DNA of 64,000 bases, taken from positions 8,480,563 through 8,544,562 of the forward strand of contig JAJEKV010000020.1 in NCBI GenBank assembly GCA_021234155.1, read 5' to 3'. The translations under genes and the position numbers were made by a program. Every line of letters begins with the position of its first letter. Within the stretch, counting starts at the first letter, position 1. This stretch comes from Isoetes taiwanensis (lineage: Eukaryota > Streptophyta > Lycopodiopsida > Isoetales > Isoetaceae). Of this stretch, positions 216 to 62,476 are shown piece by piece. A model generated the notes under the pieces. The model made no database searches. It had not been told where the DNA came from and saw only the letters and a list, made by a program, of their open reading frames with translations.

Positions 216-1689
216 CTAAACATAAATCGACACGCCTGAGCCGATTACTTCGGAGATGACCTTGCCGTCCCATTGCTCCATGAACTGCGGGTACTGCTTT
301 ATCAGGTCCTTCTTAAGTACCCATGTCGCGTCTTCCACCGGCAAGTGTTTCCACTTGACCAAATATTGGAGAAACTCTGATCTCCTTGTCTTCTTGACGG
401 CCTTATCAAGGATCAAGTCTGGGACTATCTCTAGCTGCTCTTCTGTCATTTCCAACAACGTTGGTGTGTCCAAGACTTCTTCTGGATTTGGAGTATGCTT
501 CTTCAACAAACTCACGTGTAAGACTTTATGAATTTTCAGGTGTGCTGGCAGCTCTAACTTGTAGGATTGGTTACCTACTCTCTTGGCTATTCTGAAAGGG
601 CCAGCCCACCTTGGAGCAAGCTTCTTACAATTTTCGATGCGGAGCTTTGCCTGCTTTACTTTGATCTTGAACCAGACGTTGTCACCAACCTGGAACTCTC
701 TGACCGTTCGATGCTTGTCGGCGACGCTCTTTTGCCGACTCCTTGCTGCAAGAAGATATCCTCGGACTTCTTCTACCAGCTGCTGCATGACGGCCAACAT
801 TTCCTGCGAAACTTCTACCTTTGACACAGGATTGTGCCAAGTGTCAGGAGTTAGACATTGGTAGCCGTAGTTGATCATGAACGGCGACATCTGGGATGAT
901 TCCTGCTTGGTGCTATTATAAGCGAACTCAACCAAGTGAATATAATCTTCCCACTTACTCTGCTTGTTCCAGACATAGTTTCTTAGCATATCTTCCAAGA
1001 TTCTGTTGGTCCGTTCTGTTTGCCCATCCGTCTGAGGATGATAGGCCGTGCTCATGGACAGCTTTGTCTGGATCGTCGCAAAAAGATCTTGCCAAAAGGC
1101 ACTCATGAACTTCGGGTCTCTGTCGGAGATGATCTCTCTCGGCATATGGAGCCTGAAGATTTCCTTGGTGAAGAGAGCCGCTATATCCAAGGCTGTGTCG
1201 GTAGTCCTGCAAGGCACAAAGTGTGCCATCTTCGACAGCTTGTCGACCACAACCATCAGGGCATCTTTTCCTCTTGCTGTCCTGGGGAGCCCTGTTATGA
1301 AGTCCATACTGATGACTTCCCACTTAGCGTTCGACACCGCTAATGGTTCCAATGCCCCTGGAATTCGAAGCTGCTCTGCCTTCGTCTGCTGACAGCTGAC
1401 ACTCTTTGATGTAGCGAGCTATCTGCTTCTTCATCCCTGGCCAATAGTAACTACTGCGCACTTTGAAATATGTCTTCATAAATCCTGCGTAGCCAGCTAT
1501 TGGACTGTTGTGGGTGTCATGGAGAATCAACTTCCTCACTCCTGATGATTCAGGCACACACAACTTATCCTTATGGTATAAAAGGTTACCTTCCTTCTTA
1601 AAATTCTTGAAGGTCTCCCTCTCCTTATCTGTTCTTGCCTCCTTGCACAAGCTCGCCCACACTTCCTTGAAGTCTGCATCTGTCGGCAA
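216..1689 (-). pseudogene. Chromovirus integrase with C-terminal chromodomain (frameshifted)
   Basis: The integrase inserts element cDNA into host chromatin. The first segment (1689 down to about 1330) carries the HHCC zinc-finger region, with HDTHNSPIAGYAG and then YYWPGMKK and KEC. The second (1352 down to 216) carries the catalytic core: the block WEVISMDFITGLP gives the first Asp, ISDRDPKF the second, and the Glu falls in the block starting YHPQTDGQTERTNR. A GPF-like stretch (APRWAGPFRI) follows. Near the C-terminus, YLVKWKHLPVEDATWV is a chromodomain core. The two segments are in different frames, with the break near 1340-1390. Chromodomains of such integrases are known to steer insertion toward modified histone H3, which matters here because the same element encodes an H3-like protein. 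Confidence 0.9.
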
Positions 1690-2987
1690 GGTTTCTTCGA
1701 TCTTCTTTCCGAAGTCGCTGGTGAGCGTCGAGATTGCGCGTTGCAGTGCACTCTTGTTGTCAGAGGATGCCTTGAAAGTGCATCTGCTACTACATTGAGC
1801 TTCCTCGGCTTATAAACTATATCAAAATCGTATTCTTCGAGGAACTCCATCCACATTCGCTGCCTCAGGTTGAGATGTGGTTGCGTGAACACGTATTAGA
1901 GGCTCTGATGATCCGTGTCCAGCTGGAACTTCCTTCCCAACAGGTAGTGCCTCCAAATTCTTAGTGCTCTGACGACTGCAAGCAACTCTTGATCATGAGT
2001 CGGGTAGCGCATTTCGGCGTCGTTCATCTTCCGAGAATTGTAAGTCACTACTCGCTCTTCCTGCATCAATACTACACCTGTGGCTATTTTACTTGCATCT
2101 GTCGCCACAAGTTTGCCCTTCTCGGGATCTGGCAGGGTCAGGATGGGGGCGGTTGTCAAAGCTTCCTTCAACATTTCGAATCCTGTTTGGGCTTTCTTCT
2201 GCCAGTGATCTGCCCAATCCTTTACTTTTTCCGCCCTCGTCAAATCCGTTAGCGGGGCTGCTATCTTTGCAAAGTTCTTCATGAACTTTTTGTAATACCC
2301 TGCTAGGCCGAGAAAGCTTCTGACCTCGTGGATGTTCTTCGGCGCCGGCCACTGTATGACTGCTTCAATCTTGGCAGGATCCGTCGAAATCCCCTCTGCT
2401 GATATCAGGTGACCCAGGTACTCCACCCTCTCCGTTGCGAAGTGGCCCTTCGACAACTTAGCGTACAACTGGTGCCTTCTTAACTTCTCGAGCACTTTCC
2501 TTAGGTGTTGTACGTGTTCTTCTAGGGATTTACTGTACACCAGAATATCATCAAAGAATACTATCACAAAAGTATCCAAAAACTCCCTGAAGATGTCGTT
2601 CATAAGCCTCATGAACGTTGCTGGGGCGTTTGACAAGCCAAACGGCATTACGGTAAACTCGCAATGTCCATACCTGGTCCTGAATGCTGTTTTTTGGGCG
2701 TCTTCTTCCTTAATCCTGATCTGATAGTACCCCGACCTCAGGTCTATCTTGGAGAAAACCTTCGCCCCTTGGAGCTGATCCATCAGGTTGTCCGATCTGG
2801 AGAGTGCATACTTATTCTTGATGGTGTGCTTGTTTAGCTGCCTGTAATCTAGGCACATCCTCAAGTTGCCATCCTTCTTCACAAAAAGGATGGGTGCCCC
2901 AAATGGTGAGACACTAGGTCTAATAAACCCTAGGTCAAGCAACTCTTGCAATTGCTTCTTCAATTCGGTCAGCTCTTGCGTCGTCAT
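1690..2987 (-). pseudogene. Chromovirus reverse transcriptase and RNase H (frameshifted at the end)
   Basis: This polymerase copies element RNA into cDNA. Visible motifs, in order, are the [14 protein letters not shown] block, [15 protein letters not shown] (motif A Asp), [17 protein letters not shown] (motif B) and [12 protein letters not shown] (motif C, the catalytic FDD form common in Ty3/gypsy). RNase H follows, with [14 protein letters not shown] and the block [20 protein letters not shown]. The last RNase H piece ([10 protein letters not shown], about 1765-1800) is in another frame from about 1895 leftward, so one frame break lies near 1890. Length and motif order are normal for a chromovirus. 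Confidence 0.92.
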
Positions 2988-3031
2988 CCTGTACGGCGAT
3001 TTGCTCGTCGGCTTCGTACATGGTTCGAGTG

Positions 3032-3640
3032 CTATCTCAACTCGACTCCTCTGTAAGGAGGGATCTGCTTGATCTCGTCTGGGAAGAGATCATGGAACTC
3101 CTTGACCAACTTAGCTATCTGCTTTGGTAATTTGCTGAGCACCTTATCTTCCTTGCTTTCTTCTGACCCGGGCTCTTCAATCTGAAGCTTGAAGACATAG
3201 GCTATCTGCTCGCTCTTTATGCACTTGAGCAGCCGCTTACTAGACATACACTGTATGATAGGAACAACTTCTTTACCTTCTATTTCTATGATTTTGCCGT
3301 TGGGCACCGTGAAGGTCACCTTCCGCTTCCCACAATCAATGATGGCTCCTGCTAGAGCGAGGTACTCCATGCCGATGATCAAATCATACTTCCCGATGTT
3401 CATCACTTCTGCCCCCATTTGGATGTTGATCCCTGGCAAGTCGATGTCGAAATTTATCCTCTTGCCTGCCGTGTGTCTCACTGCCCCGCTTGCTAACACC
3501 ACGGGTCTCGGCTTTGACTTCAACGGCTTGAGCTTCAACATCTCAACCATTCTTGGAGACGCAAAGTTGTGGGTGCTCCCCGTATCTATCAGGACTATGA
3601 AAGACTTGGCCTTGGCCTTCCCTTGCTTGGTCTGAATCTA
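3032..3640 (-). pseudogene. Chromovirus aspartic protease
   Basis: This protease cleaves the gag-pol polyprotein. The catalytic triplet is visible as LIDTGSTHNF just upstream of the first methionine of this frame, at about 3570-3600, followed by a retropepsin-like stretch (VVLASG, then YDLIIGMEYLALAGAIIDCG). The frame differs from gag, which runs out at 3543 in the overlapping frame. The gag-protease boundary is therefore either a programmed frameshift or a mutation; the sequence alone cannot decide. A further frame break near 3032-3060 separates it from RT. Confidence 0.85.
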
Positions 3641-4975
3641 TGGCTGCAAAGATATGACACTCACCCTGGATGAAGTCGCGTGCTTCCCCGCCGGCGTCGT
3701 CAGATGGAGTCTCCCATCCACCCAACTCTGCTAATGGCGCATTCATGACAAAAGGGCAGTTTGCTGTTCTGTGGCCTGGCTGGAAGCACCTGAAGCAGAG
3801 CTGTTTCTCAATGCACTCCTGCCTCTTCTCCTTAGGCATTGCCTGTAAAAAGGATCGCACCCCCTTCGAGTAGTTTGACCCTTCTTGCTGCGGCTTTTCC
3901 TTGAAGGATACCTGTTTCTTCTCCTGTTGCTTCCCATAATTGCCACTGTATGGAGTTTTTGCTGGTCCTGGACTAGCTGTTCTAGGGCTATAACTTCCTG
4001 TTGCTTTGCCCTTGTCTTGATAGTACTGCTGTTTCTGCCCGCTGTTCTGAGGGCCAGATCCTTGCAGGCTAACTGCTTTTGATTCCGCTTCTGATACTGT
4101 TCGAGGGTTAATTTCTCTTACCAGCTTCCTTATCTCGTCGTTTAATCTCTCGATGTACTCTTCCACTGCATGGCGTTCATTCATCTTCGGCACATAAAGC
4201 CTCAGTTTCATGAACTCTTCCGTGTATTTCTGCACTGACTTGTTGCCCTGCTGTAGTCGATAGAATTGCTGCATCATGTGACATTTGTGCTCCCTTGGCA
4301 CATAGTGGCGCTTGAATGCCTTTGAGAATTTCCGAAACCTGCAGCTGTCTCGGCTCAGTCCATGTGCTTTGGCGTATCCCTTCCACCAAATGCGAGCTGC
4401 CCCCTTGAGGTTGGCTGTTGCCACCCTGCCTTTGTCTTTGTCCATTTCATATGCATTCCCATATTCCCTCATCTCGTCCAGCCAGGCCTCTGCCTCCATG
4501 CCTGACCGACTGTCCCCTGAGAACTGTTCAAGTTTTCTTGCTTCCATACGTTACTCAGCGCCGAATCTACTTTCTTCTGGTAGTCTGAGGTCTTTGAGTC
4601 CCTGGGTCTGCCATCCCTACGGTCCCGCACCTCTTCTACCTCTTCCTCAGAGTCGGAGTCCGAATCTGAGCTTGTGTTGGAGGAGTCCGTGCTTGGGGAC
4701 CTCCTTCTTTTGCTCTTCTTCTTATCCTTTCCCGCCTTTCGAGGTGGTGCTTGCGGCAACTGGACGTTGTCATCTAGGCCAACTCCTGCTTGTGCTGTCA
4801 GAAAGGCCTTTATTTCTTGAAGGTCCGATCTCATCTGCGACATCTCCTCTTCGGGAGTCATGGGACCCAATTCTTCGTACAGGTTCCTTGCTGGGTGCTG
4901 CCTGGCCAGCGTCTGTTCATCTCTATGGACTCGCCGCTCTTGTTCAGCTATTCCTGGACCTCTAACTACATGCAC
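3543..4975 (-). pseudogene. Chromovirus gag with CCHC zinc knuckle (one frame break)
   Basis: Gag forms the particle shell and binds element RNA. The conserved capsid region is visible (EAEAWLDEM, ARIWWKGYA, MMQQFYRLQQGNKSVQKYTEEF), followed by the nucleic-acid binding knuckle CFRCFQPGHRTANC (CX2CX4HX4C). The amino-terminal part (4975 down to about 4550) is in a different frame. It is rich in charged residues (KDKKKSKRRRSPSTDSSN and an acidic run). The two frames overlap between 4469 and 4547, so a single indel near 4550 separates them. Confidence 0.88.
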
Positions 4976-5144: not shown

Positions 5145-6648
5145 CTATTCTTGGAATCGCCGGTAGGATGGGTTGTCCTGAAGGAACTTCTTAACTTGGG
5201 TCGTTCCTACCGAGCGTCCCAAGTTCCTGAGGATATTCGTTGGTGTCCCGCCCTGCAAGGCTGTCACCAAGTCTTCTACTCTGCGGTCCGAAGTGTAGGC
5301 CGTGGTCACTGCTAATCTTCCTTGCCGTCGATAGGGTACGGCAAAGTCGAAGATATCAAGTGCCATCGTTCTCTTGACTAGGATGACATGGTCAACTGTT
5401 AGGATCAGCCGAGCATGCCTACCAAATCCTGAGAGCACGATGAGCATGAACACTCCTTCTTCGCCCTTGGGCTGAATTTGCGGTGTATGACCGCTATTCT
5501 CCCCTCCATCAGCAGAGGAAGATAATACCTTAGCGACCTGTCCCTGCCCGTCGCTGTTGATTCGAAGTCAAGTCGGGCACCGGCTCTATGTCTTCCCACG
5601 TATTCATCGACGTCAGTCTCTGTGAGTTCTCCGTGGTCCCTTATTGTTGATGTGATTCTGGTCAGGTCGATCTCGCCCCTTCTCTGAACACCTGTGGGGG
5701 CTGGTGTCGAAGAACTTGGCATCAAAATATTCGTGGTCTTTCCACGGATCCCCATCCGTTCTTCGATGGCGTAGAATTCTTCTTTGGACGGCAGATCCCG
5801 ACCTTCCATCATTTGCCGGATGCTGCTGTACGCCTGGATATCTGAAGTCGACTCCCCGGTATTAGGTGTCGGCTTCTCTTACATGGATTGGGAGTCGGAA
5901 GCCTCCCGGTCGATGAAGTCATCCAGATCCGGTTGTTGCCGCAGACGGTACAGCAACTCATCAAGTCGGTACTCCCTGGCTCTGCATTCGGGAGGTTCTG
6001 GATGTCACTCAGGAGCAGGTACTCCTGGCCGTTGATGATGATGGGGGCTAGGCTTGTGATACCTAGCCCGAGTGGGGGAGCAATCCTGAGGGTCTGCCGG
6101 TCCTGTTCGAAAGCCGGTATCTCCTGCTCTGCTACTTGCCGCTCTTGGTCGGGGTCGAGTTCGACGTAGTCTTCGTCATCTGAGTCGAGCGCTTCGTCTT
6201 CGGCTCTTCCTTCTTGCTCCACTTGATATTGCAAGAGGAGCTGACCCTCTGCTGAAGAGGCTAAGGGGTCTACATCCATGGCAGGGGTAGAGGGTTCCCC
6301 GATTGGGTTCTGGGCATGTTGAGAAAGAAAGATGGCTAGGGCAGCAGTGTAGGAGAAATACTTGGCCCTATTAGCTGTCATGACCATGTAATCTGGCAAC
6401 CTAGAAACTTTGTTGTTCAGATATTTGACAATGTTGGGGACATCGCCCAAGGCTGCTTGGAGGGATTGCTTGGGAACAAAATATCCTGTACAAGGGGGAA
6501 GTTGTACTAAGGATGGTCCTACTCTAGCTTGGAACTCAGTCATGACTTCCATATAGGATGGGGTTGCCTGCAATGTGGCTTGGACATCTATCTCCTTCTG
6601 GAAAATTTGGAAAATGGAATTGATGTCTGCCTTAGCTGCAGTTGCCAT
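5145..6648 (-). pseudogene. Unknown protein of the chromovirus, second extra module (three overlapping frames)
   Basis: I do not recognise this protein. It starts at ATG 6648 (MATAAKADINS), about 110 bases after a TATA box. The first frame runs 6648-5809, the second 5812-5405 and the third 5453-5145. Coding-like composition continues across the breaks: near 5990-5880 the frame used by the second ORF reads as plausible protein (RLDELLYRLRQQPDLDDFID) before an in-frame TAA. So this is probably one gene of about 500 residues broken by two frameshifts and one stop. The middle has an acidic stretch (ALDSDDEDYVELDPDQER); the C-terminal part is hydrophobic with alternating beta-like residues. It lies in the same orientation as gag and the H3-like module. 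Its first two frames overlap as ATGA, so stop-and-restart translation is an alternative. Confidence 0.55.
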
Positions 6649-6755
6649 TGACCTTGAGTGACTGGGACTATTAAGCAGCTCCTGAAGCGCCTAAGGGATT
6701 AGGAAAATCGCCTAAAAGTTGGGAGCAAACCTGTAGAATGCTAAGTGAGATATGG

Positions 6756-6769
6756 GGGTCTATTTATAG
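6756..6769 (-). promoter_or_regulatory. TATA box of the second extra module
   Basis: In sense (minus) orientation this reads CTATAAATAGACCC, about 110 bases before the ATG at 6648. The same 14 bases occur before the H3-like ORF (8723-8736), and both leaders also share AGGCGATTTT. A canonical TATA box at a normal distance from the ATG, repeated in two leaders, suggests internal promoters. Confidence 0.6.
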
Positions 6770-6958
6770 GCAAAGGGAAAACCCTAATTTTTGGATGACT
6801 TGAAAATTGAGGTTGGGCAATTCTTATCTATTTTGAGGTCAAAATGAGGATTTGAAGGCTAGTTTGAGAGTTTGAGCATGAATAAACTATCTAATGGACC
6901 TACTGCAACAAATTTGAGGTCAATTGGAGGTGGCATGAAAGAGAGAATGTTGAAAGTA

Positions 6959-7020
6959 TCACGGTGTGCGCTGGAAGGCCGACCTAAAATTTAGGTCGAG
7001 GTCCTGGCGCATACCGTGAG
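6959..7020. repeat. Long hairpin, copy 1 of 4
   Basis: The outer arms (TCACGGTGTGCGC and GCGCATACCGTGA) pair, and an inner palindrome (GACCTAAAATTTAGGTC) forms the tip. The same structure occurs at 7161-7226, 8841-8903 and 9054-9116. This copy lies upstream of the module at 5145-6648. Confidence 0.85.
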
Positions 7021-7160
7021 CAATTTGGCCCTAATTGGTCAAGACTTATGTAAACAAGATGAACTAAGGGTCAAAACATGATGGTCTCACCGAGATATTC
7101 AAGATTGACCCTTTACTTAGTCGATTTGGAGGTGTTTGGGATCACTTTTGGTGTGAAATA

Positions 7161-7226
7161 CTCACGGTGTGCACCTGGGGCCTGACCTAAAATTTAGGTC
7201 GGGGTCCTGGCGCGGCATACCGTGAG
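7161..7226. repeat. Long hairpin, copy 2 of 4
   Basis: Arms CTCACGGTGTGC and GGCATACCGTGAG flank the inner palindrome GACCTAAAATTTAGGTC. It lies about 200 bases from copy 1, in the gap between the H3-like ORF and the unknown ORF. Confidence 0.85.
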
Positions 7227-7373
7227 CAACTTCTCACTAATTGACCATAAGATGTCCAATTTAACTAAAACAAAAGGCAATTATTGCTAATTGAACCTAA
7301 TTAACAACATTTATGCACTTATACTTTACTCAAAACAACTTTTTTTTATTCACAAAAGTTATTATTTACAAAA

Positions 7374-8111
7374 TTAGCGTTCCCCTTTAATGGAACTGGC
7401 CAAATGCATGTCCTTGGTCATCAGAGTTACCCTCTTGGCGTGTATAGTGCACGTCGTTGAGTCTTCAAAATGCTGCACCAGCTTCTGCTCAGCTGCTTCT
7501 TGCAAGGCTAGCAGCATCTCGCCTGTGACTCTCTTGCTGGAGTCGAACTCCTGCACGACCTCCTTGACGAGCCTGGCAAATGGTGCTCGCGGGATGAGAA
7601 GACCATAGCCTCTCTGAAAATGCCGGATCTCCCGGATTGCTTGTGACAGTTTCGATCCTACTTTCCTGGCTTTTGGCTTCTTGGGAGGAGTAGGCTTCTC
7701 TAGAGGTGGCTTGAGCGTCTGCTTCTTGGATGGCCGTCCTCCTTCGACATAGGTGACCTTGTTCGCCTGATAGTAGGAGTTGTAGGCCTCCCATTTCTTC
7801 ATATATTCCTGGTGTGCCTTCAACTTCTTCTGGTAGACCCTGAGATGGTCTACCACATAAGACTCCCGGGCAGGTCGGGGTGGCTTCTTCGGATCCTTGT
7901 CCTTCTCCCATGTGGGGTAAGGTGGGGGCGCCTGTACCTGCTGATCCTTGTTCGTCCCATCCTGGTCTGTCCGATCCTCGCCTGTTGGCTTGGAGGAGCT
8001 CCCTCCTTCTTGGTGAGGGTTGTAATCTTCGTCATCTGAGTCATCCGAGGATGCGGGCTGGTCGACCGGCCATTCGTTGATGACGATCTTGGTCCTTGGT
8101 GTCGTCTTCAT
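7374..8111 (-). CDS. Histone H3 fold domain of a retrotransposon-encoded H3 variant (C-terminal part)
   Basis: The last ~90 residues are unmistakably histone H3. Blocks identical or near-identical to the H3 fold are AIREIRHFQ (alpha-N), PFARLVKEVVQEF (alpha-1), ALQEAAEQKLVQHFED (alpha-2), CTIHAKRVTLMTKDMHLA (loop 2 and alpha-3) and the terminal GER. Loop 1 has the canonical length, unlike the longer loop of most centromeric H3s, and the conserved alpha-2 Cys is kept. Before the fold are about 150 residues of charged and proline-rich linker (acidic SSDDSDDEDY, then PPPYPTWEKDKDPKKPPRP and a coiled-coil-like stretch). Upstream of ATG 8111 the frame stays open as Lys/Glu-rich protein to about 8255, so this is almost certainly the continuation of the ORF at 8108-8626 after one indel. 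The stop is directly after GER. It lies between primer site and gag of the chromovirus, in the same orientation. Confidence 0.93.
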   Translation of the reverse strand: MKTTPRTKIVINEWPVDQPASSDDSDDEDYNPHQEGGSSSKPTGEDRTDQDGTNKDQQVQAPPPYPTWEKDKDPKKPPRPARESYVVDHLRVYQKKLKAHQEYMKKWEAYNSYYQANKVTYVEGGRPSKKQTLKPPLEKPTPPKKPKARKVGSKLSQAIREIRHFQRGYGLLIPRAPFARLVKEVVQEFDSSKRVTGEMLLALQEAAEQKLVQHFEDSTTCTIHAKRVTLMTKDMHLASSIKGER

Positions 8112-8626
8112 CTTCCTCTTGGGCTCCTCCTTCTCTTTGCCCTTGAGTTTCTTCTTGGCTTCTGCCTCCTTTGCCTCCTTTTCTTCCCTTTTCTTCTTCT
8201 TCTCGGCCTTTCTCTTCTCGCGGCGTCGTGCCTTCGCCCGTGCATTTTGATCCAGGCCTCGAACTCTTCTTCTAAGGTCGGCTCGGGAGTGGGCTCCCTC
8301 TGCTCCTCCTGTTCCTTGGCCGCCTGCTCTCGTTCTGCCTTTTCCTTTTCCATTTGCTCGAACACTCTTTGAATTTCATCATCCTCCGACCCAACGGCTG
8401 CTTCTCCATCCACCTGCGCGTTGATGCCGCCAACCAGCTCGTCTAGTGATCCTTGCTCGGATCCCTCCTCCTGCAGCTCCTCTGAAGTGCTTTCCTCGCC
8501 TGATGAAGGTTGGTCTCCTCCTGCGAGAAGTTGCTCCCGAAGTAGCTGTTGTATGCGCCTCTTATCTTGGGCGCTAGGCGTTTCACCTAGTCGATACTTC
8601 CGAGCAGTCTGTTTGGTGCGTGCCAT
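8108..8626 (-). CDS. N-terminal part of the H3 variant, beginning with the exact histone H3 tail
   Basis: The ORF starts MARTKQTARK, identical to residues 1-10 of histone H3 including the Lys4 and Lys9 equivalents. It then departs completely (YRLGETPSAQDKRR), so Lys14, Lys18, Lys27 and their surroundings are absent. A long Glu/Ser-rich acidic region follows (SSGEESTSEELQEEGSEQG and more). From about 8255 onward the reading becomes Arg-rich, the signature of a Lys/Glu codon run read out of frame; the correct continuation lies in the frame of the ORF at 7374-8111. A TATA box sits about 100 bases upstream. Tail plus linker plus fold would give a protein near 415 residues, three times canonical H3. 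Whether the break is real, programmed or a consensus error is unknown. The two ORFs also overlap as ATGA, allowing restart. Confidence 0.88.
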   Translation of the reverse strand: MARTKQTARKYRLGETPSAQDKRRIQQLLREQLLAGGDQPSSGEESTSEELQEEGSEQGSLDELVGGINAQVDGEAAVGSEDDEIQRVFEQMEKEKAEREQAAKEQEEQREPTPEPTLEEEFEAWIKMHGRRHDAARRERPRRRRKGKKRRQRRQKPRRNSRAKRRRSPRGR

Positions 8627-8722
8627 GTCTTACTTCACGTCAATCGGAGCTCTGGCACCCAAAAATCGCCTGGAAGTGCGGAGCTAACTTCTAGACAGGA
8701 AGTCTACAAATGAGAGGGGTTT

Positions 8723-8736
8723 GGGTCTATTTATAG
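8723..8736 (-). promoter_or_regulatory. TATA box of the H3-like module
   Basis: In sense orientation it reads CTATAAATAGACCC, about 100 bases before the ATG at 8626. It is the same 14-base string as at 6756-6769, giving the H3-like ORF a promoter of its own in addition to the LTR promoter. Confidence 0.6.
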
Positions 8737-8840
8737 TTTGGGCAAATTTTAGGTCAAATTCTAAGTTACTCATTTTCATGTGTCAAAGCACCTATTAACC
8801 TAAAACATGTACTTACTTCAGTGTTTTCTAAGCAATTTTG

Positions 8841-8903
8841 CTCATGGTGTGCGCTAGAGGGCTGATCTAATATTTAGATCAAGGCTCTGGCGCATACTGT
8901 GAG
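8841..8903. repeat. Long hairpin, copy 3 of 4
   Basis: Arms CTCATGGTGTGCGC and GCGCATACTGTGAG flank the inner palindrome GATCTAATATTTAGATC. Compared with copies 1 and 2, the inner stem differs at matched positions (GACCT/AGGTC against GATCT/AGATC), so pairing is kept. Confidence 0.85.
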
Positions 8904-9053
8904 CACTTTTGCATTTTAGACTACAATTTTATAATTTCTAGACATATTCCTAGGGGTATGATATACAATTCTAGCTAAATCTTACCTTAAAATTTGATCT
9001 AGCATATTATCTTGTTAAAAATCATCATGTTTCAAGGTGAATGTGGCCAGTTA

Positions 9054-9116
9054 CTCATGGTGTGCGCCTGGGGCTCAACCTAAAATTTAGGTTGGTGCTC
9101 TGGCGCATACCGTAAG
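9054..9116. repeat. Long hairpin, copy 4 of 4
   Basis: Arms CTCATGGTGTGCGCC and GGCGCATACCGTAAG flank the inner palindrome AACCTAAAATTTAGGTT. It is again a matched change relative to the other copies. Together with copy 3 it forms the pair upstream of the H3-like module, between primer site and TATA box. Confidence 0.85.
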
Positions 9117-9311
9117 CAATTTCCACACTTGGTCAAATTTTAGTTTAACTTTTTAGTTCTCTTGGTTTTCAATTCTTCTAACTGTTACTAGCTTAGCATA
9201 ACTACAAAAAATGAGAAAACTTTTTCCCACTTTTTCGAGGTTTGAGAATTCTACTAGGTTAGTACTACTGGGAGCATGGCCAGTGCTTTGCTCTTGGTCT
9301 CCAAGAACATT

Positions 9312-9323
9312 GCTCTGATACCA
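9312..9323 (-). other. Primer binding site complementary to initiator Met tRNA
   Basis: The minus strand reads TGGTATCAGAGC, the standard plant retrotransposon primer site for tRNA-iMet, one base from the LTR edge. It fixes the 5' end of the element and its minus orientation. Confidence 0.93.
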
Positions 9324-9324
9324 C

Positions 9325-10869
9325 TGTGACGTCCCCTACTCATATACGGTGCACTCACCGTATATAAACAGGAGTTCATCCCCCATACCAGCTCCATGCT
9401 GATACAAGGCCCTCCACGTATCACTACAACCTTGATGAGTTCCAGTGGGAAGAATGAAGGGGTCATTTTACCCTGTCTCCCTCAGGGCCTACCTAGCTGC
9501 GGAAGCGTAAACATACATGTCAGTACAAATACATCAGCATCACATGACCATCACGAAGGATGGCTCACCACATATCTGCATAGATAAAGATCAGTACATC
9601 ACATATGGAGATCCTACCCAAGGCTCAGACTCAAGGGGAATGACTGACGGCTTGGGCCCCAGAAGTCATTGCAGACAAAATTCATGGCATATGGATTTGG
9701 TTGGCATAAGAACATGGCTTAGGATAGTCCACTCCATCCGCCCCTCCTGTGCACACTTTGCAGAGTAGGTTGAAAAGTATTGGGACTTGACTGTAGCCCC
9801 CCGGATGCATAGCCAAAGGGGCTATTCCTGGGTTGCATCTCCCCAGTTCCGATGGGGCAGGTAGGGATCACTCCCACCAGAGGTTGGCATGCTGATTCAA
9901 GGTGACTAGAGGGCCACTGCCCGTACTCGACTGAACTCCATGGAAGGTGTCCACCACCCCAAGAGTGTCGAACCCATGCAAAGCCCGCACGCAGTGGCAG
10001 AGCATTAGGTCTAGTTCACAATAGTCCCCGATAGGCTTTACTACCAGAGGGACGTGATCATGAGTCAGGACATGAACCTCCTTGTAAGCCAATCTGGCCC
10101 CTCCACCCACAACCAGGTGTGGCTCTTGTACACAGGCCGAATTTAATAGTGCATTAAAGAGGGCTAGCTAGGAGCATCAACTACTAGGCTTTTAAGGCCT
10201 CTACCCCCCTTCCCAATACAATGATTCCACAGAGATCATCATCACATACATATCATAGAAGAACTAAAGAATAAGATTTAATCCAAATCACAGAGTTAGG
10301 TTCTTTAGTTATGGCTTGATATTTAGGGATCTAGATGGCTGCTATGGGCAAATCAATAGGCTAAATCTACTTACTCTATGTCTGGGAGTCGGTTTAGACT
10401 ATTGAATTGGCAAAATACCTGATCCCTGGCTTGCTCCTCCTGCTCTGAATGCATCCATGCTGCAGAACTGCTCGAAAATGAAGCTAGAAAGGGAAGCTGA
10501 TGAGCTAAACTGCTCAGACAGACTTCGGGAGTCAAGATTGGCTCTTGGAGCAAGCAAAACAGAGTTCTAGAAGGCTATGGACGAAAATGAAAAGTTAGGG
10601 TTTCATATACCTTATATAGACTAAGGGTTAGGGCTAGGGCTTCCATTAACCCTTGAGCATGTGGGATAATGGGTGTGGCCCACTTGCCTATATTAATTAA
10701 GTGGGCTAAAGTGTACACATGAATAAATGTGCACACACTTGCAAGTTGCCCCCTAGGGTGCTACTTGCTTAGCTATACGTCGGCGTACACGTCAATCGGG
10801 ATGGCATGTACGCGTGACGAGGCAGTACAGTATATGTCCTGGGACCGTATATTGTGCTGGAATGTCACA
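9325..10869 (-). repeat. 5' LTR of the chromovirus
   Basis: The left edge TGTGACGTCC sits beside the primer site, and the right edge ends ATGTCACA, giving the terminal inverted repeat TGTGAC/GTCACA. Length is about 1.55 kb. The other LTR is outside the window, so the right edge rests only on the inverted termini. Near the left edge is a palindrome (TATACGGTG, CAC, TCACCGTATA) sharing ACCGTGAG-like words with the internal hairpins. No reliable ORF is seen. Confidence 0.7.
10611..10620 (-). promoter_or_regulatory. LTR promoter TATA box
   Basis: The sense strand reads TCTATATAAG inside the LTR, about 250 bases from its 5' end. By analogy with plant LTRs, transcription would start roughly 30 bases further (near 10580). 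Confidence 0.5.
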
Positions 10870-12699: not shown

Positions 12700-12775
12700 T
12701 AAAATTGTATGGGTCACATGACCTATTGGTCTCCGTGGACGTTAAAAAATGTATTCTATTCTATTCTATTCTTCC
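12700..12775 (+). mobile_element. LINE 3' tail fragment ending in (TTCTA)n
   Basis: The string from the CCTATTGGTCTCCGTGGAC region through a run of TTCTA repeats matches the ends of the copies at 17710-18033, 41930-42247 and, inverted, 28083-28350. It ends about 40 bases before the lectin ATG. Just upstream is a triplicated TTATCTAAAATTG word (12675-12710). Confidence 0.6.
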
Positions 12776-12813
12776 AATATTTAAAGATTGTTTTGTATGG
12801 AACTAGAACAGCT

Positions 12814-13221
12814 ATGGCGAGATGGTTATTTCTATCGGTCATGCTAATGTTGTTTATATTTTGTACAGCAAGGGACACATTATATGCAGGAGAAAGCCTA
12901 AGCGCAAGGCAATCACTAACATCTTCAAATGGGGCCTATAATATTGTGATGCAGGTGGATTGCAATCTCGTGTTGTATCAAGTAGATTATGAGAAAGCCT
13001 TATGGAGCTCTGGAACTAATGGGAAAGCGAATGGTTGTGTTACTACTATGCAAAGTGATGGGAATCTTGTCATCTATAGTGATACCAATTCTGCAATATG
13101 GGCAAGCAATACGAATCGCAAGTCTGATGACTATTATTTCATCATGCAAAATGATGGGAATGCTGTCATCTATACTCACCCTAATGGTGCAGCTATTTGG
13201 GCTACTAATACCAACCAATGA
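12814..13221 (+). CDS. Secreted GNA-type (bulb-type) mannose-binding lectin
   Basis: A single-exon gene of 135 residues, full length for one B-lectin domain. The start at 12814 (MARWLFLSVMLMLFIFC) gives a clear hydrophobic signal peptide; the upstream extension of the frame is repeat-derived. All three mannose-binding motifs of the form QxDxNxVxY are intact: QVDCNLVLY, QSDGNLVIY and QNDGNAVIY, spaced as in the beta-prism II fold. Such lectins are secreted or vacuolar and bind mannose glycans, often with defence or storage roles. The promoter region is unusual because a LINE 3' tail lies immediately upstream. No neighbouring gene suggests a pathway. Confidence 0.92.
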   Translation: MARWLFLSVMLMLFIFCTARDTLYAGESLSARQSLTSSNGAYNIVMQVDCNLVLYQVDYEKALWSSGTNGKANGCVTTMQSDGNLVIYSDTNSAIWASNTNRKSDDYYFIMQNDGNAVIYTHPNGAAIWATNTNQ

Positions 13222-44885: not shown

Positions 44886-46938
44886 TTACAAAATTCTTTT
44901 CAGGACTCTAGAAAGATCTTCAATGTCAAACTGAAGGCCAGGGAAGTTGTTCACTTTGAATGTTCTAAGGACAATCCTGATGACATCCTTCCTCAGGAAA
45001 CCATTGTTACAAAATGTACATATAAGCTCATGGATGTCTTCAGCGGCTGCTTTGCAATTCGAATGTGCATACACAAAAGGAAATATCTGAGAAATAATGA
45101 CTTTACAAGCCTGACCATAAGGTCTACATCCCCAAGCCTTGATGAACCTGTTAACTTTAAACTTCAGTTTCTTTCTCTTATCGTATCTGGAATATTGGTA
45201 CAACCCAATATTAGGGTCTAAGACATGAACTGAAACATTGAGGAAATTTATCTTGATGCCCACTTTGGAGTCCTGCTTGTACTCTGTCTCATCTTTAACA
45301 TCCAATAGGTTCATGTTGTAGACTGTATAATCAGATTCAGTTGAGAAAAACTCATGTAAATTTTCCCCATTAATGATACATAAATCATCAATGTATCTAA
45401 AGGAAAATTGGAATCTGGCAATATCATTGAATCTTCTCATTTTTGCTAAAACAGACACAAATCTAAGTTCAAACCAGGCTAAATACAGGTTACACCAGGC
45501 AGGACTACATGAAAACACCATTGGAATACCTTTTCTTTGTCTCCAAATTTGAGATCCCATCTGAAGAAAACAGTGGCACAAAAGCCATGTATTAATCTTG
45601 CAAAAATCAGGTTTTGAGATAACACACTCATCCCGTCCATCATCACTAACTTTTTTCCATTTAACTCTGAAGGAGCCTGCAAAGTTTTTGACAGTAAGTT
45701 GAGCCAAAGGCATTTTGTGAGACATAAAATCCCATACCATAAATGCAACATCACTAATGACTTCAATGATGCCCTCCTGCCCTTCAAGAGGAATGTTTTT
45801 TATAACAGTTTGTAATGTCTATCGAAAAGACATTGAAGATCTTGGGAGGAAGGTTAAGAACAAAGTCGAAGGAGGAGTTTATAAGCCAGCATGGATTAAT
45901 TTTGTTTCTCAACCATAACCTAATTTCAGATGTATTCCAATAGCACACTTCGGGCCACAATTCTACAAAATTGCTCAAGATAGCAGTCAATAAGTCTGAA
46001 ATTTCAGTAAAGATGGTACTATGAGCATTTAAAAGCCACCTATAATCCCCTTTGTGAGCTTTAAAAATTCCCATAAGATACGGTAATCTGTTACAAGATG
46101 GGTACTGCAGCCCTAAGTCATTTGTGATACCATGGGCACATCTAGACTTAATCTCATCAGCATTTATAGGAATGATTTCGAAGTCAGAGCTATTCAACCT
46201 AGACATGGCCATATCTCTAATATGCCTTTGGCAAATAAAGGATGGATTATTTCCTGCTTTGTCAACCTCAGAGATATACAGATTTTTTTGTAACCATAAA
46301 ATATTATTCCTGACATTACCATCATCCCATAGGTATCTTTTAGGCTCACAAATTGACCTGAATTCAGAAAATTTTACCTTAGCCAAAGCCATCAATTTGT
46401 TTTTCAAATTCTGAATTTGAAAATCAAAAACATGAATCAAACTGTCATGATGAATAGAGAAAAACTGATCCAGAGTAGCCTTGAAGTCCACCAAGAATTT
46501 ATCATTAGAACAGGCCCCATCAAGGATATGGTTGAGACCATATGATAAAGCCAGCCTGAGTTTAGGACAATGAATAATTTGTAAGTCCATGGTGCGAATA
46601 TGGCCAATAGCAGGATCAATAAACTTGGCTAAGCTTGGGTTATTACACGGGCACTTTTTAGGAAAACCATCTGCAAAGACTTCAAAGGGTTTATACAGTC
46701 TATCTCTTAGCTGATCAAGGTATCTCCAACCAAAAAGAGTATTATCTAAAAGCTCATCAGCCATATCTGGAATATTTTCTGACAATATTTCTTTGAAAAT
46801 ATACCTAATGCTAATTTTTTCCAAGGATTTGGAAAAGAAGGTACTATGGACAACTTTAGTCTTGGTTTTACTCTTTTCAGTAATAAGATGTCTTCTTCTA
46901 TTGCAGTCTCTCACCACAGATCTTGAGTTATGGATTAC
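44886..46938 (-). pseudogene. PLE reverse transcriptase, body 1 (one frameshift, altered motif)
   Basis: The first segment runs from the spacer edge (46938) to 45784 and holds a Cys motif (KKCPCNNPS), VDKAGNNPSFICQRHIRDMA, LPYLMGIFKAHKGDYRWLLN and motif A (FSIDITNCYK). The second (45787-44886) holds GIPMVFSCSPAWCNLYLAWF, FRYIDDLCIINGENL and INFLNVSVHVLD, then a helical tail. The break lies in an A-run at about 45798, where element 3 has one A fewer. Motif B reads GIPMV where element 3 has GIPMG, losing a conserved Gly. This copy is thus doubly damaged unless the indel is a consensus error. No GIY-YIG follows. Confidence 0.85.
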
Positions 46939-59457: not shown

Positions 59458-60696
59458 ACTACATTGACAGTTTTGCCCAACGGATGTGTGGTGAGTTGGT
59501 ATAGGCCTAGTAATGCCAAAATAAATGTGCACTTGGTCGGGGGTTCAAACCCGGCCAGTGTATGTTTATATTTGGGAGTTGGTTATTGGGGTTATACGGC
59601 CATGATCCCCGACGTGGTAGAACTTAAAAGCCTATACATGTCCTCCACTTTGGCTGCTCGTTGGCAGTGGGACAAAAACTAGCTAGTCTGTCAAAAGACT
59701 AGTCTAGACCAGTAAAAGTTGGTTTACAGACATTTGTGGCTGGTTTTATCGGTTCTTGTCTAAAGCCCTCTGGTCCTAGGATGCCCAAAAAGTCATATGT
59801 GGCAAAGGCACTAGGTCGGGTGACGCTAGGTTCGGGCGATGCCCCTAGAGTTGCCCCTAGGATCCGAAAACTTCCTCAAGGTGGGATTTAATCCTGCCTA
59901 CAAAGTGTGCATGTATGGCCAAAGTTTTGCCCAACGGATGTGTGGTGAGTTGGTATAGGCCTAGTAATGCCAAAATAAATGTGCACTTGGTCGGGGGTTC
60001 AAACCCGGCCAGTGTATGTTTATATTTGGGAGTTGGTTATTGGGGTTATACGGCCATGATCCCCGACGTGGTAGAACTTAAAAGCCTATACATGTCCTCC
60101 ACTTTGGCTGCTCGTTGGCAGTGGGACAAAAACTAGCTAGTCTGTCAAAAGACTAGTCTAGACCAGTAAAAGTTGGTTTACAGATTACTGTGGCTGGTTT
60201 ACTGGTTACTGTCTAAAGCCCTCTGGTCCTAGGATGCCCAAAAGTCATATGTGGCAGGCGGCACTAGGCTGGTGACGCTAGGTTCGGCGATGCCCCTAGA
60301 GTTGCCCCTAGGATCCGAAAACTTCCTCAAGGTGGGATTTAATCCTGCCTACAAAGTGTGCATGTATGGCCAAAGTTTTGCCCAACGGATGTGTGGTGAG
60401 TTGGTATAGGCCTAGTAATGCCAAAATAAATGTGCACTTGGTCGGGGGTTCAAACCCGGCCAGTGTATGTTTATATTTGGGAGTTGGTTACTGGGGTTAT
60501 ACGGCCATGATCCCCGACGTGGTAGAACTTAAAAGCCTATACATGTCCTCCACTTTGGCTGCTCGTTGGCAGTGGGACAAAAACTAGCTAGTCTGTCAAA
60601 AGACTAGTCTAGACCAGTAAAAGTTGGTTTACAGATTACTGTGGCTGGTTTACTGGTTACTGTCACACATCCGTTGGGCAAAACTGTTAATGTAGT
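59458..60696 (+). repeat. Tandem array of a tRNA-derived SINE unit (period 451-454 bp) closed by a 33-bp inverted repeat
   Basis: Units start at AGTTTTGCCCAACGG (59469, 59923, 60374). Each contains an A-box-like TGGTGAGTTGG (59489-59499) and a B-box GGTTCAAACCC (59542-59552) with normal spacing, the mark of a tRNA-derived SINE head. The first 33 bases (59458-59490) recur inverted at the right end (60664-60696) with one mismatch. The array cuts off the RT of element 3. Short ORFs inside the units are repeats, not genes. Confidence 0.8.
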
Positions 60697-62476
60697 CTAG
60701 TTTTCTTCTTTTGTCAAATCTGGAGTACTTGAAGAGCCCAATAAATGGATCTGTGACTTGGACAGTGATATTCAGAAAGTTAATTTTGTAACCAAGGTTA
60801 GAGTAAATTCCGTAGCAGGTTTCATCCTTTATTCCAAGATGCTCCATATTGTAAATAGTAATCATGGAGTCTTTACAGAAAAACTCATTTAAGTCTCCTC
60901 CATTAATGATGCATAAGTCATCTATATATCTTGAGACATGCTGAAATCTATGAATATCCTTCATTCTGTTACAGTGGGCCAGTTTAAGAATGAACTTCAG
61001 TTCATACCAGGCTAAATACAGGTTGCACCATGCTGGGCTGCACGAAAAACCCATTGGAATGCCTTTCTTTTGTCTCCATATATTATTACCCATTTGTAGA
61101 TAGCAGTGGCACAATAGCCAGTTATTATATTTATAGAAGTCTTCCTTTGAGAAAATTATATTGCCAGATTTTGAATCACGGTCAACCTTCATCCATTTGG
61201 TAGAGAAAGAGTTATTCTTAATCTTGATGACAAGCTGAGATAAAGGGAATTTTTGAGCCATGAATTGCCATACTAAATCAGCAACCTCGTTCATAATTTC
61301 CATCATGCCTTCATCACCCTCGAGGGGAATGTTTTCATAGCATTTGGTGATATCAATTGAAAAGACGTTAAAAATCTTTTTAGGCAAGTTAAGTACAAAA
61401 TCAAAGGATGAGTTTATGAGCCAACATGGGTTAACTTTGTCTTTCATCCATAGTCTAAGTTCAGCAGTATTCCAGTGACAAACTGCAGGCCATTTATCAA
61501 TGAAATTATTCAATACTGCAGTCAAAATATCAGCAACTTCTGTAAAAAGAGTGTTATGGGCATTTGTCAACCATCTGTATTCCCCTTTGTGCGCTTTATA
61601 TGTCCCCATCAAATATGGCAGTCTATGGCTAGCAGGTGGAAGCAAATTAAGAGAGCCCGTAATACCTTGAATACATTCATTTTTAATATCTTGAGGGGAA
61701 AATGGCATGCTCTCAAAATCAGAGCTATTGAGTCGAATAAGGGCCATTTCTCTAATATGCCATTGGCATATAAAACATGCATTGTTGTTGGCTTTATCCA
61801 ATCCAGAAATATATAAATTCTTTTCTAACCATAAGAGGTTCTTTTTTACAATGCCATCGTCCCACAAGTATCTTGTACTTTTTGTACTGTTTTTGTGAGC
61901 TGTAATTTTCAGCATAGCCAAGCTTCGAAGTTTATCCTTCAAGTCTTTTATATCAGCCTCAGATAGGTGAAGTAAACTGTAATGATGAGCAATAAAGAAT
62001 TGATCACAAGTTGCCATGAAGTCATCCATGAATTTGTCAATAGTAAAGCCACAGTCTGGAATATGATTAAGGCCATTTTGAAAGGCATTTCTCAATTTTG
62101 GACAATGCACAATAGTAAGATCCATAGTTCTAATGTGATTGATCCGTGGATCAATGAATTTTGTAAGACTAGGGTTCTTGCAAGGGCACTTTTTAGGGCT
62201 GCCATCTGCAAAGATATCAAAAGGTTTATAAACCTTGTCTCTAACTTGGTCAATATATCTCCATCCAAATAATGTATTATCCAAAAGTTCGTCAGCAATT
62301 GAGGGAATATTCTCCCAAAGAATATCTTTAAAGATACTTCTGATGCTGAAATTTTCCAGACTTTTAGATAGGAATGTACTGTGCACTATTCTGGCTTTTG
62401 ATTTACATTTGATAGAAATCAAATGCTTTTTATGATTGCAGTCTTTTATAATGGACCGAGTATTGTCCGAATTTCC
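60697..62476 (-). CDS. PLE reverse transcriptase, element 3 (C-terminus truncated by the SINE array)
   Basis: About 590 residues in one open frame, with all catalytic motifs: KKCPCKNPSLTKFIDP (Cys motif), DKANNNACFICQWHIRE, LPYLMGTYKAHKGEYRWL, FSIDITKCYENIPL (A), GIPMGFSCSPAWCNLYLAWY (B), SRYIDDLCIINGGDL (C) and INFLNITVQV. The frame runs into the inverted repeat of the SINE array after DKRRKLDY, so the thumb and helical C-terminal region seen in body 1 are missing. There is no ATG at its start; the frame is open to an AG acceptor-like site at 62477, as expected if it is spliced to ORF1. It is the best template for classifying the family. Confidence 0.88.

Follow-up and report, generated by a model that had tools for sequence, protein, structure and literature searches.

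A 64,000-nucleotide stretch of the genome of the lycophyte Isoetes taiwanensis (contig JAJEKV010000020.1, positions 8,480,563 to 8,544,562; G000:C1019:8480563-8544562), here called the window, contains on its minus strand a Ty3 chromovirus that encodes a histone H3. Its gag, protease, reverse transcriptase (RT)/RNase H and integrase genes, assigned with Pfam, follow one another in Ty3 order on one strand, and the same order is found in the fetched copies of the family that extend that far. Two extra open reading frames (ORFs), the H3 ORF and a second frame that we call ORF X, lie between the primer-binding site and gag. The integrase ends in a chromodomain (Pfam Chromo 2.1e-9, residues 333-384; rve 3e-9), as the original prediction for this locus, made from the sequence alone, had proposed. 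Our analysis of related copies identifies two families of H3-encoding chromoviruses in this genome, in which a complete H3 is encoded by a separate ORF upstream of gag and the histone is kept by selection. The features of the window element are as follows.

9325-10869, minus strand: 5′ long terminal repeat (LTR) of the chromovirus, 1,545 bp, TGTGAC...GTCACA, boundaries read from the sequence; the 3′ LTR lies outside the window
9312-9323, minus strand: primer-binding site TGGTATCAGAGC, separated from the LTR by a single base
9047-9130, minus strand: hairpin 1 of the two before the H3 ORF (RNA fold z -3.8)
8834-8917, minus strand: hairpin 2 of the two before the H3 ORF (RNA fold z -7.4)
8728-8735, minus strand: TATAAATA box at -109 relative to the H3 ATG, conserved at a similar place in copies
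8600-8626, minus strand: start codon and H3 tail residues 1-8 (MARTKQTAR), with the ATG at 8624-8626
7374-8629, minus strand: H3 ORF, comprising tail, acidic then basic linker, and fold; two overlapping frames in the window copy
7377-7640, minus strand: complete H3 histone fold, from alphaN to GER (Pfam, PDB, alignment)
7345-7350, minus strand: AATAAA, a possible poly(A) signal 26 nt past the end of the fold, present in 21/36 copies
7154-7243, minus strand: hairpin 1 of the pair upstream of ORF X (RNA fold z -6.6)
6951-7037, minus strand: hairpin 2 of the pair upstream of ORF X (RNA fold z -5.2)
6761-6768, minus strand: TATAAATA box at -120 relative to the ORF X ATG, in 15/16 copies, window included
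5145-6690, minus strand: ORF X, several frames in the window copy, no Pfam domain
3543-4550, minus strand: gag (Retrotrans_gag, Ty3_capsid; Pfam)
3032-3637, minus strand: protease (RVP_2; Pfam)
1896-3089, minus strand: reverse transcriptase and RNase H (Pfam)
216-1418, minus strand: integrase with C-terminal chromodomain (Pfam)

The H3 ORF of the window copy is covered by two frames on the minus strand, which we read separately and unmended. The upstream frame (8108-8629) opens M-ARTKQTARKYRLGETPSAQ, its N-terminus reading MARTKQTARKYRLGETPSAQ, and the downstream frame (7374-8375, 333 aa) carries the H3 fold at its C-terminal end (7377-7640). Their overlap is compatible with a single indel in the linker. 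The fold is recognized as a Pfam Histone domain (E=1.5e-24, residues 222-329 of 333), and its best match among solved structures is histone H3.3 (PDB, E=1e-23), with an alignment that reaches the terminal GER. Against plant H3 the fold aligns over 88 residues without a gap, 47 of them identical, so that loop 1 has the length found in H3 and lacks the lengthening typical of the centromeric variant CENH3. At the other end of the ORF, 10/10 tail residues equal those of H3; in a single copy this is a weak signal, as a tblastn search with H3 alone returns the tail at E=0.058. The conserved H3 tail of residues 1-36 is not kept as a whole: residues 1-8 (or 1-9) are retained and the remainder is replaced by the linker. 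Ten copies of the window's family, termed family 1, are open from tail to fold (L016, L024, L031, L033-L038, L040) and measure 402-429 aa. In the window chromovirus, the interval from primer site to gag thus holds an ORF in gag orientation that joins an exact H3 tail through a charged linker of about 300 residues to a gap-free H3 fold, which bears out the original prediction on tail, fold, linker, loop length and indel alike. The derivation from ordinary H3 that the prediction drew from loop 1 is one of two candidate origins, CENH3 being the other.

Family 1 is abundant in the assembly, which comprises 1,658,258,908 bases in 1,110 contigs. The 333-residue frame has at least 122 matches, consisting of the window itself, 120 places at 61-91% identity and one short piece at 56% that adjoins another; this count is a lower bound, since 121 of 33,965 first-look candidates were scored. 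The exact degenerate fold motif VTLMxKDM[HQ], which recovers 32/41 family-1 copies at hand, occurs 674 times in the genome, and its reversed pattern 0 times. We fetched 40 family-1 places, picked by score and open frame (20 loci of ~9.8 kb and 20 of ~1.6 kb), and the copies are distributed over many contigs. Of the long loci, 16/20 have ORF X downstream of the H3 ORF in the same orientation, 11/20 have gag or protease after H3 and ORF X, and 14/20 have the primer 12-mer ahead of the H3 ORF. We had considered that the H3 ORF might sit on a separate nested insertion. This is ruled out by the recurring order LTR, primer site, H3, ORF X, gag, and the window copy is therefore no nested stray; some RT relatives may be without the ORF. 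No LTR pair was found in the long loci.

The tail is likewise frequent. MARTKQTAR is encoded as exact codons at 1,888 sites in the genome, canonical genes included, and its reversed pattern at 0. Together with a recognizable tail in 36/41 copies, these counts rule out a tail that arose by chance. The first 100 MARTKQTAR sites listed include 2 canonical genes and 9 sites with the exact family-1 fold motif downstream, and the other 89 belong to neither group; they may represent additional types of H3, copies whose motif has changed, or isolated tails. The contigs that hold these 100 sites also contain 34 family-1 fold motifs, of which 9 have the exact tail upstream.

Evidence that these ORFs are maintained as histones comes from comparing copies. 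In a neutral simulation of divergence from H3 to the window sequence, 197/2,000 runs remained stop-free, and the substitution score of the window (227) lies inside the neutral range (mean 198, maximum 243). The single copy alone is therefore insufficient to prove selection, and the family supplies the proof. For the family-1 fold, the proportions of synonymous and nonsynonymous differences (pS and pN) are 0.642 and 0.088, and the ratio of nonsynonymous to synonymous divergence (dN/dS) is 0.064 in 37/41 copies, 4 being excluded for gaps or a lost end. Among 666 pairs, 456 have a measurable dS >0.1, none of them above 1 in dN/dS, and 209 are saturated. The neutrally evolving fold that would have counted against the original prediction is thus not what we find, and the tail is constrained as well: in the 36/41 copies with a recognizable tail (31 of them with an ATG), pN/pS is 0.21 for residues 1-8, 0.34 for residues 1-9 and 0.88 for residues 10-19. 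Arginine 2 is kept through both CGC and AGA codons, 13 each of 36. In the 8 loci that hold all compared parts, dN/dS is equal for fold (0.082) and gag (0.084), and is 0.17 for the basic linker, 0.25 for protease, 0.28 for RT (7 loci) and 0.25 to 0.36 for ORF X; the fold and linker figures are biased downward because copies were ranked by H3-ORF similarity and open frames, yet gag, which was not used in the family-1 ranking, gives the same figure as the fold. Purifying constraint on fold and tail rules out an ordinary pseudogene.

A second family follows the same plan. A genome search with canonical H3 gave 9,022 first-look candidates, and the best 150 listed comprise 15 canonical genes (96-98%) and 135 other places (71-86%), so that at least 150 H3 places exist. 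Frames of >=300 residues enclose 67 of the 135 non-canonical places listed, and frames of >=400 enclose 51. The family-1 arrangement recurs in a related chromovirus, family 2, represented by the two long loci L049 and L050, with an H3 ORF of 409 or 411 residues followed by an ORF X homolog, gag (46% identical in L050), protease, and then RT (L049) or integrase (L050). The primer 12-mer is also present in L050. In L050, gag, protease and integrase share one open frame (6531-8675) with no RT between protease and integrase, and this frame is perhaps a deletion derivative. The ORF X homolog is 24% identical (E 1e-7) and occupies the equivalent place; a family-2 profile gave no similarity to ORF X, and a search of proteins with ORF X as query yielded 2,240 candidates, none of which met E<=0.01. 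Twelve further ORFs were read, and one of these, L062, is a third type.

Several observations show how the two families relate and how far family 2 has spread. The family-2 motif IMPKDLALAR, absent from canonical H3, occurs 579 times in the genome and 0 times when reversed. Profiles of family 1 and family 2 are joined over 151 columns (E 1.6e-27), and the match reaches ~70 residues upstream of the fold, most of the likeness being in the fold itself. A protein search with family 2 returned 5,274 proteins, the best 120 of which cover <=50% of the query, mostly the fold. In 12 family-2 copies (L054, a near-copy, and L062, another type, were left out), dN/dS is 0.024 for the fold versus 0.136 for tail plus linker; the copies come from the top of the H3-ranked list, which biases the fold figure downward, and the linker was unranked. 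Histone H4 is without amplification of the H3 kind. Its genome search gave 69 first-look candidates versus 9,022 for H3, and its 40 matches are 16 full-length genes (99-100%) and 24 weaker ones, mostly short pieces, with no frame longer than 176 residues.

The two families differ in which tail residues they keep. Lysine 4 (K4) is invariant in both, in 36/36 family-1 and 12/12 family-2 tails. At position 9, the 36 family-1 tails have K in 14, V in 19, and I, L and P in 1 each, and family 2 has proline in 12/12. Family 2 mostly starts M-A-x-T-K and retains only A-x-T-K of the H3 tail, residues 5-9 being gone. In the DNA tree the position-9 label requires at least 3 changes, 2 of them forced by starred branches. 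Tail and fold conflict in some copies (L018, L036, L043), which may reflect recombination. Within the fold, the H3-H3′ bundle (C110, H113, R116, D123, L126, I130) and the H4 side are largely retained in both families, and family 2 retains each of 12 DNA-contact residues checked in 12/12 copies.

The upstream regions of the two extra ORFs resemble each other. The TATAAATA box lies upstream of the H3 ATG in 34/36 family-1 copies, at -101 to -119 in 31. A pair of strong hairpins precedes the H3 ATG, at positions near -460 and -250, and a second such pair precedes ORF X; all four hairpins are present in 15/20 long loci plus the window, and a search for consensus RNA structure among 77 hairpins found nothing. 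From its sequence, the hairpin pair with TATAAATA before each extra ORF looks like a duplicated internal promoter cassette. The AATAAA after the fold is found in all 14 copies with K9; the 1.6-kb loci extend only ~60 nt past the fold. The TATA box upstream of the family-1 ORF suggests that H3 may be produced from its own short transcript. In family 2 there is no TATA near -110, and TATAAA occurs in 3/14 upstream stretches, at -220 to -268.

Lysine 4 is the lysine marked in active chromatin, and plants shut transposons down via H3K9 methylation. That A-x-T-K with K4 is conserved while K9, S10 and the stretch from K14 to K36 are mostly gone favours a histone that can receive the active mark and is a poor target for silencing. 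An H3 kept by selection in such elements suggests direct manipulation of chromatin. We tentatively favour, at somewhat less than even confidence, the reading that H3 made by the element enters or disturbs host nucleosomes to resist silencing. The element H3 would pair with host H4 and H3, and would enter nucleosomes in family 2 or modify them in family 1. By retaining an N-terminal A-x-T-K with K4 it would be able to carry the active mark. The silencing marks at the tail tip are mostly lost, through replacement of K9 by V, I, L or P in most copies read and the absence of S10, and the stretch from about K14 to K36 is supplanted by the long linker. Nucleosomes with element H3 would then be poor targets for K9 methylation. 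Some hydrophobic residues at K9-like sites can clog methyltransferases, and the V/I/L9 forms may additionally clog those that act on K9. In family 1 the protein would be made from its own short transcript via the TATA box. A broader proposal is possible and rather doubtful, namely that several LTR retrotransposon lineages in this lycophyte build their own chromatin, with an H3 that can be marked as active at K4 and hardly, if at all, as silenced, so that their copies or the host chromatin resist heterochromatin.

Several observations weigh against the proposal that element H3 resists silencing from within nucleosomes. Lysine 9 is retained in 14/36 family-1 tails, and an ARKS or ARKT site, a context like that of K9 and K27, is present in 5/12 family-2 linkers and 1/17 family-1 proteins and might still be methylated. 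Family 1 has changed DNA contacts, R63P in 37/37, R128S in 37/37 and K53H in 35/37 copies; these changes are fixed and not decay, and with them family 1 may not make a normal nucleosome. Structure models of the family-1 and family-2 proteins are of low confidence (mean pLDDT 56 and 44). The selection figures carry the downward ranking bias described above, and the K4 codon shows no synonymous change (AAA in 36/36 of family 1, AAG in 12/12 of family 2), so that part of its conservation may act on nucleotides. Finally, RT relatives of the window element number at least 104 places (window included, 88-100% identity), and among the places listed 7 have an H3 5.2-5.9 kb upstream; in contigs with a complete motif list, 2/10 RT places have the family-1 motif. 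Several RT places sit in frames of >1,000 residues, and the downstream frames of H3 loci measure 95 to 828 within the fetched stretch. Given these longer frames and the few RT relatives with H3 upstream, it is probable that some sister elements lack an intact H3 close by.

Other functions can be envisaged for the same protein. It is unlikely that the element H3 acts outside nucleosomes as a decoy or inhibitor of the K9 machinery, in which a K9 tail would be a substrate and a V/I/L9 tail a blocked substrate, together tying up writers and readers. Such an inhibitor would account for the retention of residues 1-8, with R8 in 34/36 family-1 tails followed by K or a hydrophobic residue at 9 in 35/36, and for the lost DNA contacts of the family-1 fold. 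It would not require a complete fold kept at a dN/dS of 0.06, however, and family 2 has lost residues 5-9 of the H3 tail. We regard as quite unlikely a packaging histone, which, with host H4 or alone via its basic linker, would coat the RNA or cDNA of the element in the particle and deliver chromatin-ready DNA to the nucleus. A highly basic linker segment joined to a histone fold, constraint on that fold as strong as on gag, and the lack of another histone among the ORFs scanned all fit this role; it leaves unexplained, however, both the A-x-T-K signal surface conserved at the N-terminus of the two families and the separate TATA box.

A role in targeting, in which chromatin is marked with element H3 and the integrase chromodomain, or a different protein of the element, recognizes the mark when selecting a site, is very unlikely. 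The conserved tail and the chromodomain on the integrase prompted the suggestion, in the original prediction, that integrase docks on the element's own tail. This does not hold in general, since K9 is missing in 22/36 family-1 and 12/12 family-2 tails, and docking of the chromodomain on methyl-K9 therefore cannot be general. In addition, the window chromodomain is by eye of the plant group II kind and lacks two of the three aromatic cage residues. Chromodomains of plant group II are described as without aromatic cage residue 24 and usually 48 (PMC3350952).

That the elements captured a centromere-type H3 of their host and use it to occupy or imitate centromeres is highly improbable. In favour of this reading, the window fold alone groups with plant CENH3 at 98/92, and family 1 has LIP-APF and VTLM-KD in common with plant CENH3. 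With 11 family-1 rows, however, the grouping with two plant CENH3 folds stands at 82/88 on a long, unstarred branch, and the approximately unbiased (AU) test does not reject a family-1 clade with family 2 and L062 (p 0.264) or with the database proteins P0002/P0031 (p 0.455). The element H3 resembles CENH3 in its divergent fold, its long unusual N-terminus and some shared residues, and differs in its H3-length loop 1, its ordinary H3 tail tip and its nature as a multicopy mobile gene whose copies lie over many contigs. Lastly, the H3 could be a chance-captured passenger that is copied with the element and does nothing for it. This would suit the scarcity of H3 upstream of listed RT relatives and the compatibility of the single window copy with drift, but is extremely improbable, as it is contradicted by dN/dS, by strong constraint on fold and tail tip with hardly any on residues 10-19, by the existence of two families and by the invariant K4.

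If several lineages do build their own chromatin in this way, the genome would by motif counts contain some eighty transposon-made H3 genes for each of the 15 own H3 genes, with an additional large set of MARTKQTAR tails (most of the 1,888) beyond them. Plant transposon silencing is written on histone H3, and an element with its own H3 would attack it at the substrate itself, not at an enzyme or RNA. Defeat of silencing by histone swap would become directly testable, and the families would amount to natural, selected experiments on the parts of H3, in which K9 varies and K4 stays constant together with most of the H3-H3 interface. More than 1,000 H3-like sequences could be hidden by repeat masking in one genome, with consequences for the counting of histone genes, for proteomic studies of chromatin and for the use of antibodies in lycophytes, and perhaps in ferns too.

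In the open-licence literature in PMC, preprints excluded, we found no histone-carrying retrotransposon, and the main text of the Isoetes taiwanensis genome paper does not contain the word histone (PMC8566536). Plant chromoviruses share with the window element LTR, primer site, gag, protease, RT, integrase and chromodomain (PMC2864245, PMC3350952). The accessible parts of these papers mention additional ORFs of unknown function and no histone gene (PMC2864245, PMC3350952), whereas in the window element the primer site and gag are separated by two added ORFs, one encoding an H3. The nearest known systems are the single H3 genes of DNA viruses and the bracovirus H4. A review of viral histones, whose main text has 0 words starting with 'retro', describes single H3 genes in Manila clam xenomavirus, Dishui Lake phycodnavirus and Sylvanvirus (PMC9145170). 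These likewise comprise one H3 without other core histones, with a fold near that of host H3 and some lengthened tails (PMC9145170). At the chaperone site, family 2 has FAIL and three DNA-virus H3s have SAIL or TAIL (PMC9145170). An H3 on a mobile or viral genome, kept by selection, is common to the virus-encoded single H3 and the families described here. The carrier, unlike that of the DNA-virus H3s, is a reverse-transcribing LTR element present in hundreds of copies in one plant genome, and family 1 has a linker of ~300 residues with H3 residues 1-8 retained. The bracovirus histone H4 (CvBV-H4), which likewise belongs to a virus-derived element, has a lengthened tail and joins host nucleosomes (PMC9145170). 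It differs in being an H4 and one virulence gene of an insect DNA-virus relic.

The protein database contains other H3 proteins with long linkers. One of them, P0002, is 272 aa long, starts with the exact tail and has 53/88 fold residues identical, the highest of 17 compared; another, P0031, from a 25.5-kb contig of Adiantum nelumboides, is annotated without a tail. Two further sets of long-linker H3 proteins are a 339-aa group, which comprises many clusters and members, and a 425-aa group. Like family 1, such proteins combine a long linker and an H3 fold with, in many, an H3-like tail (none in P0031); unlike it, their linkers do not resemble five element linkers tested against them beyond the tail, save for one 37-residue match at E 0.034. 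Scans of viral contigs with three queries gave 38, 10 and 9 pattern matches, with no relative among them. Additional long-linker H3 groups are P0034, P0056, P0077, P0097 and P0010, some with dozens of members per 90% cluster, and other H3-bearing repeats may exist outside the Isoetes taiwanensis genome.

Elsewhere in the window, two related RT-like ORF regions lie on the minus strand at 60650-62476 (RVT_1 1e-4, under the curated cut-off) and 44886-46938 (no Pfam match). Long near-identical repeats adjoin them, 52936-55764/56634-59456 (96%) and 42383-44742/50559-52910 (98%). By resemblance, these regions may belong to an uncommon kind of retroelement, for example a Penelope-like element. On the plus strand, 12703-13221 holds a D-mannose binding lectin gene or fragment (B_lectin 3.6e-10).

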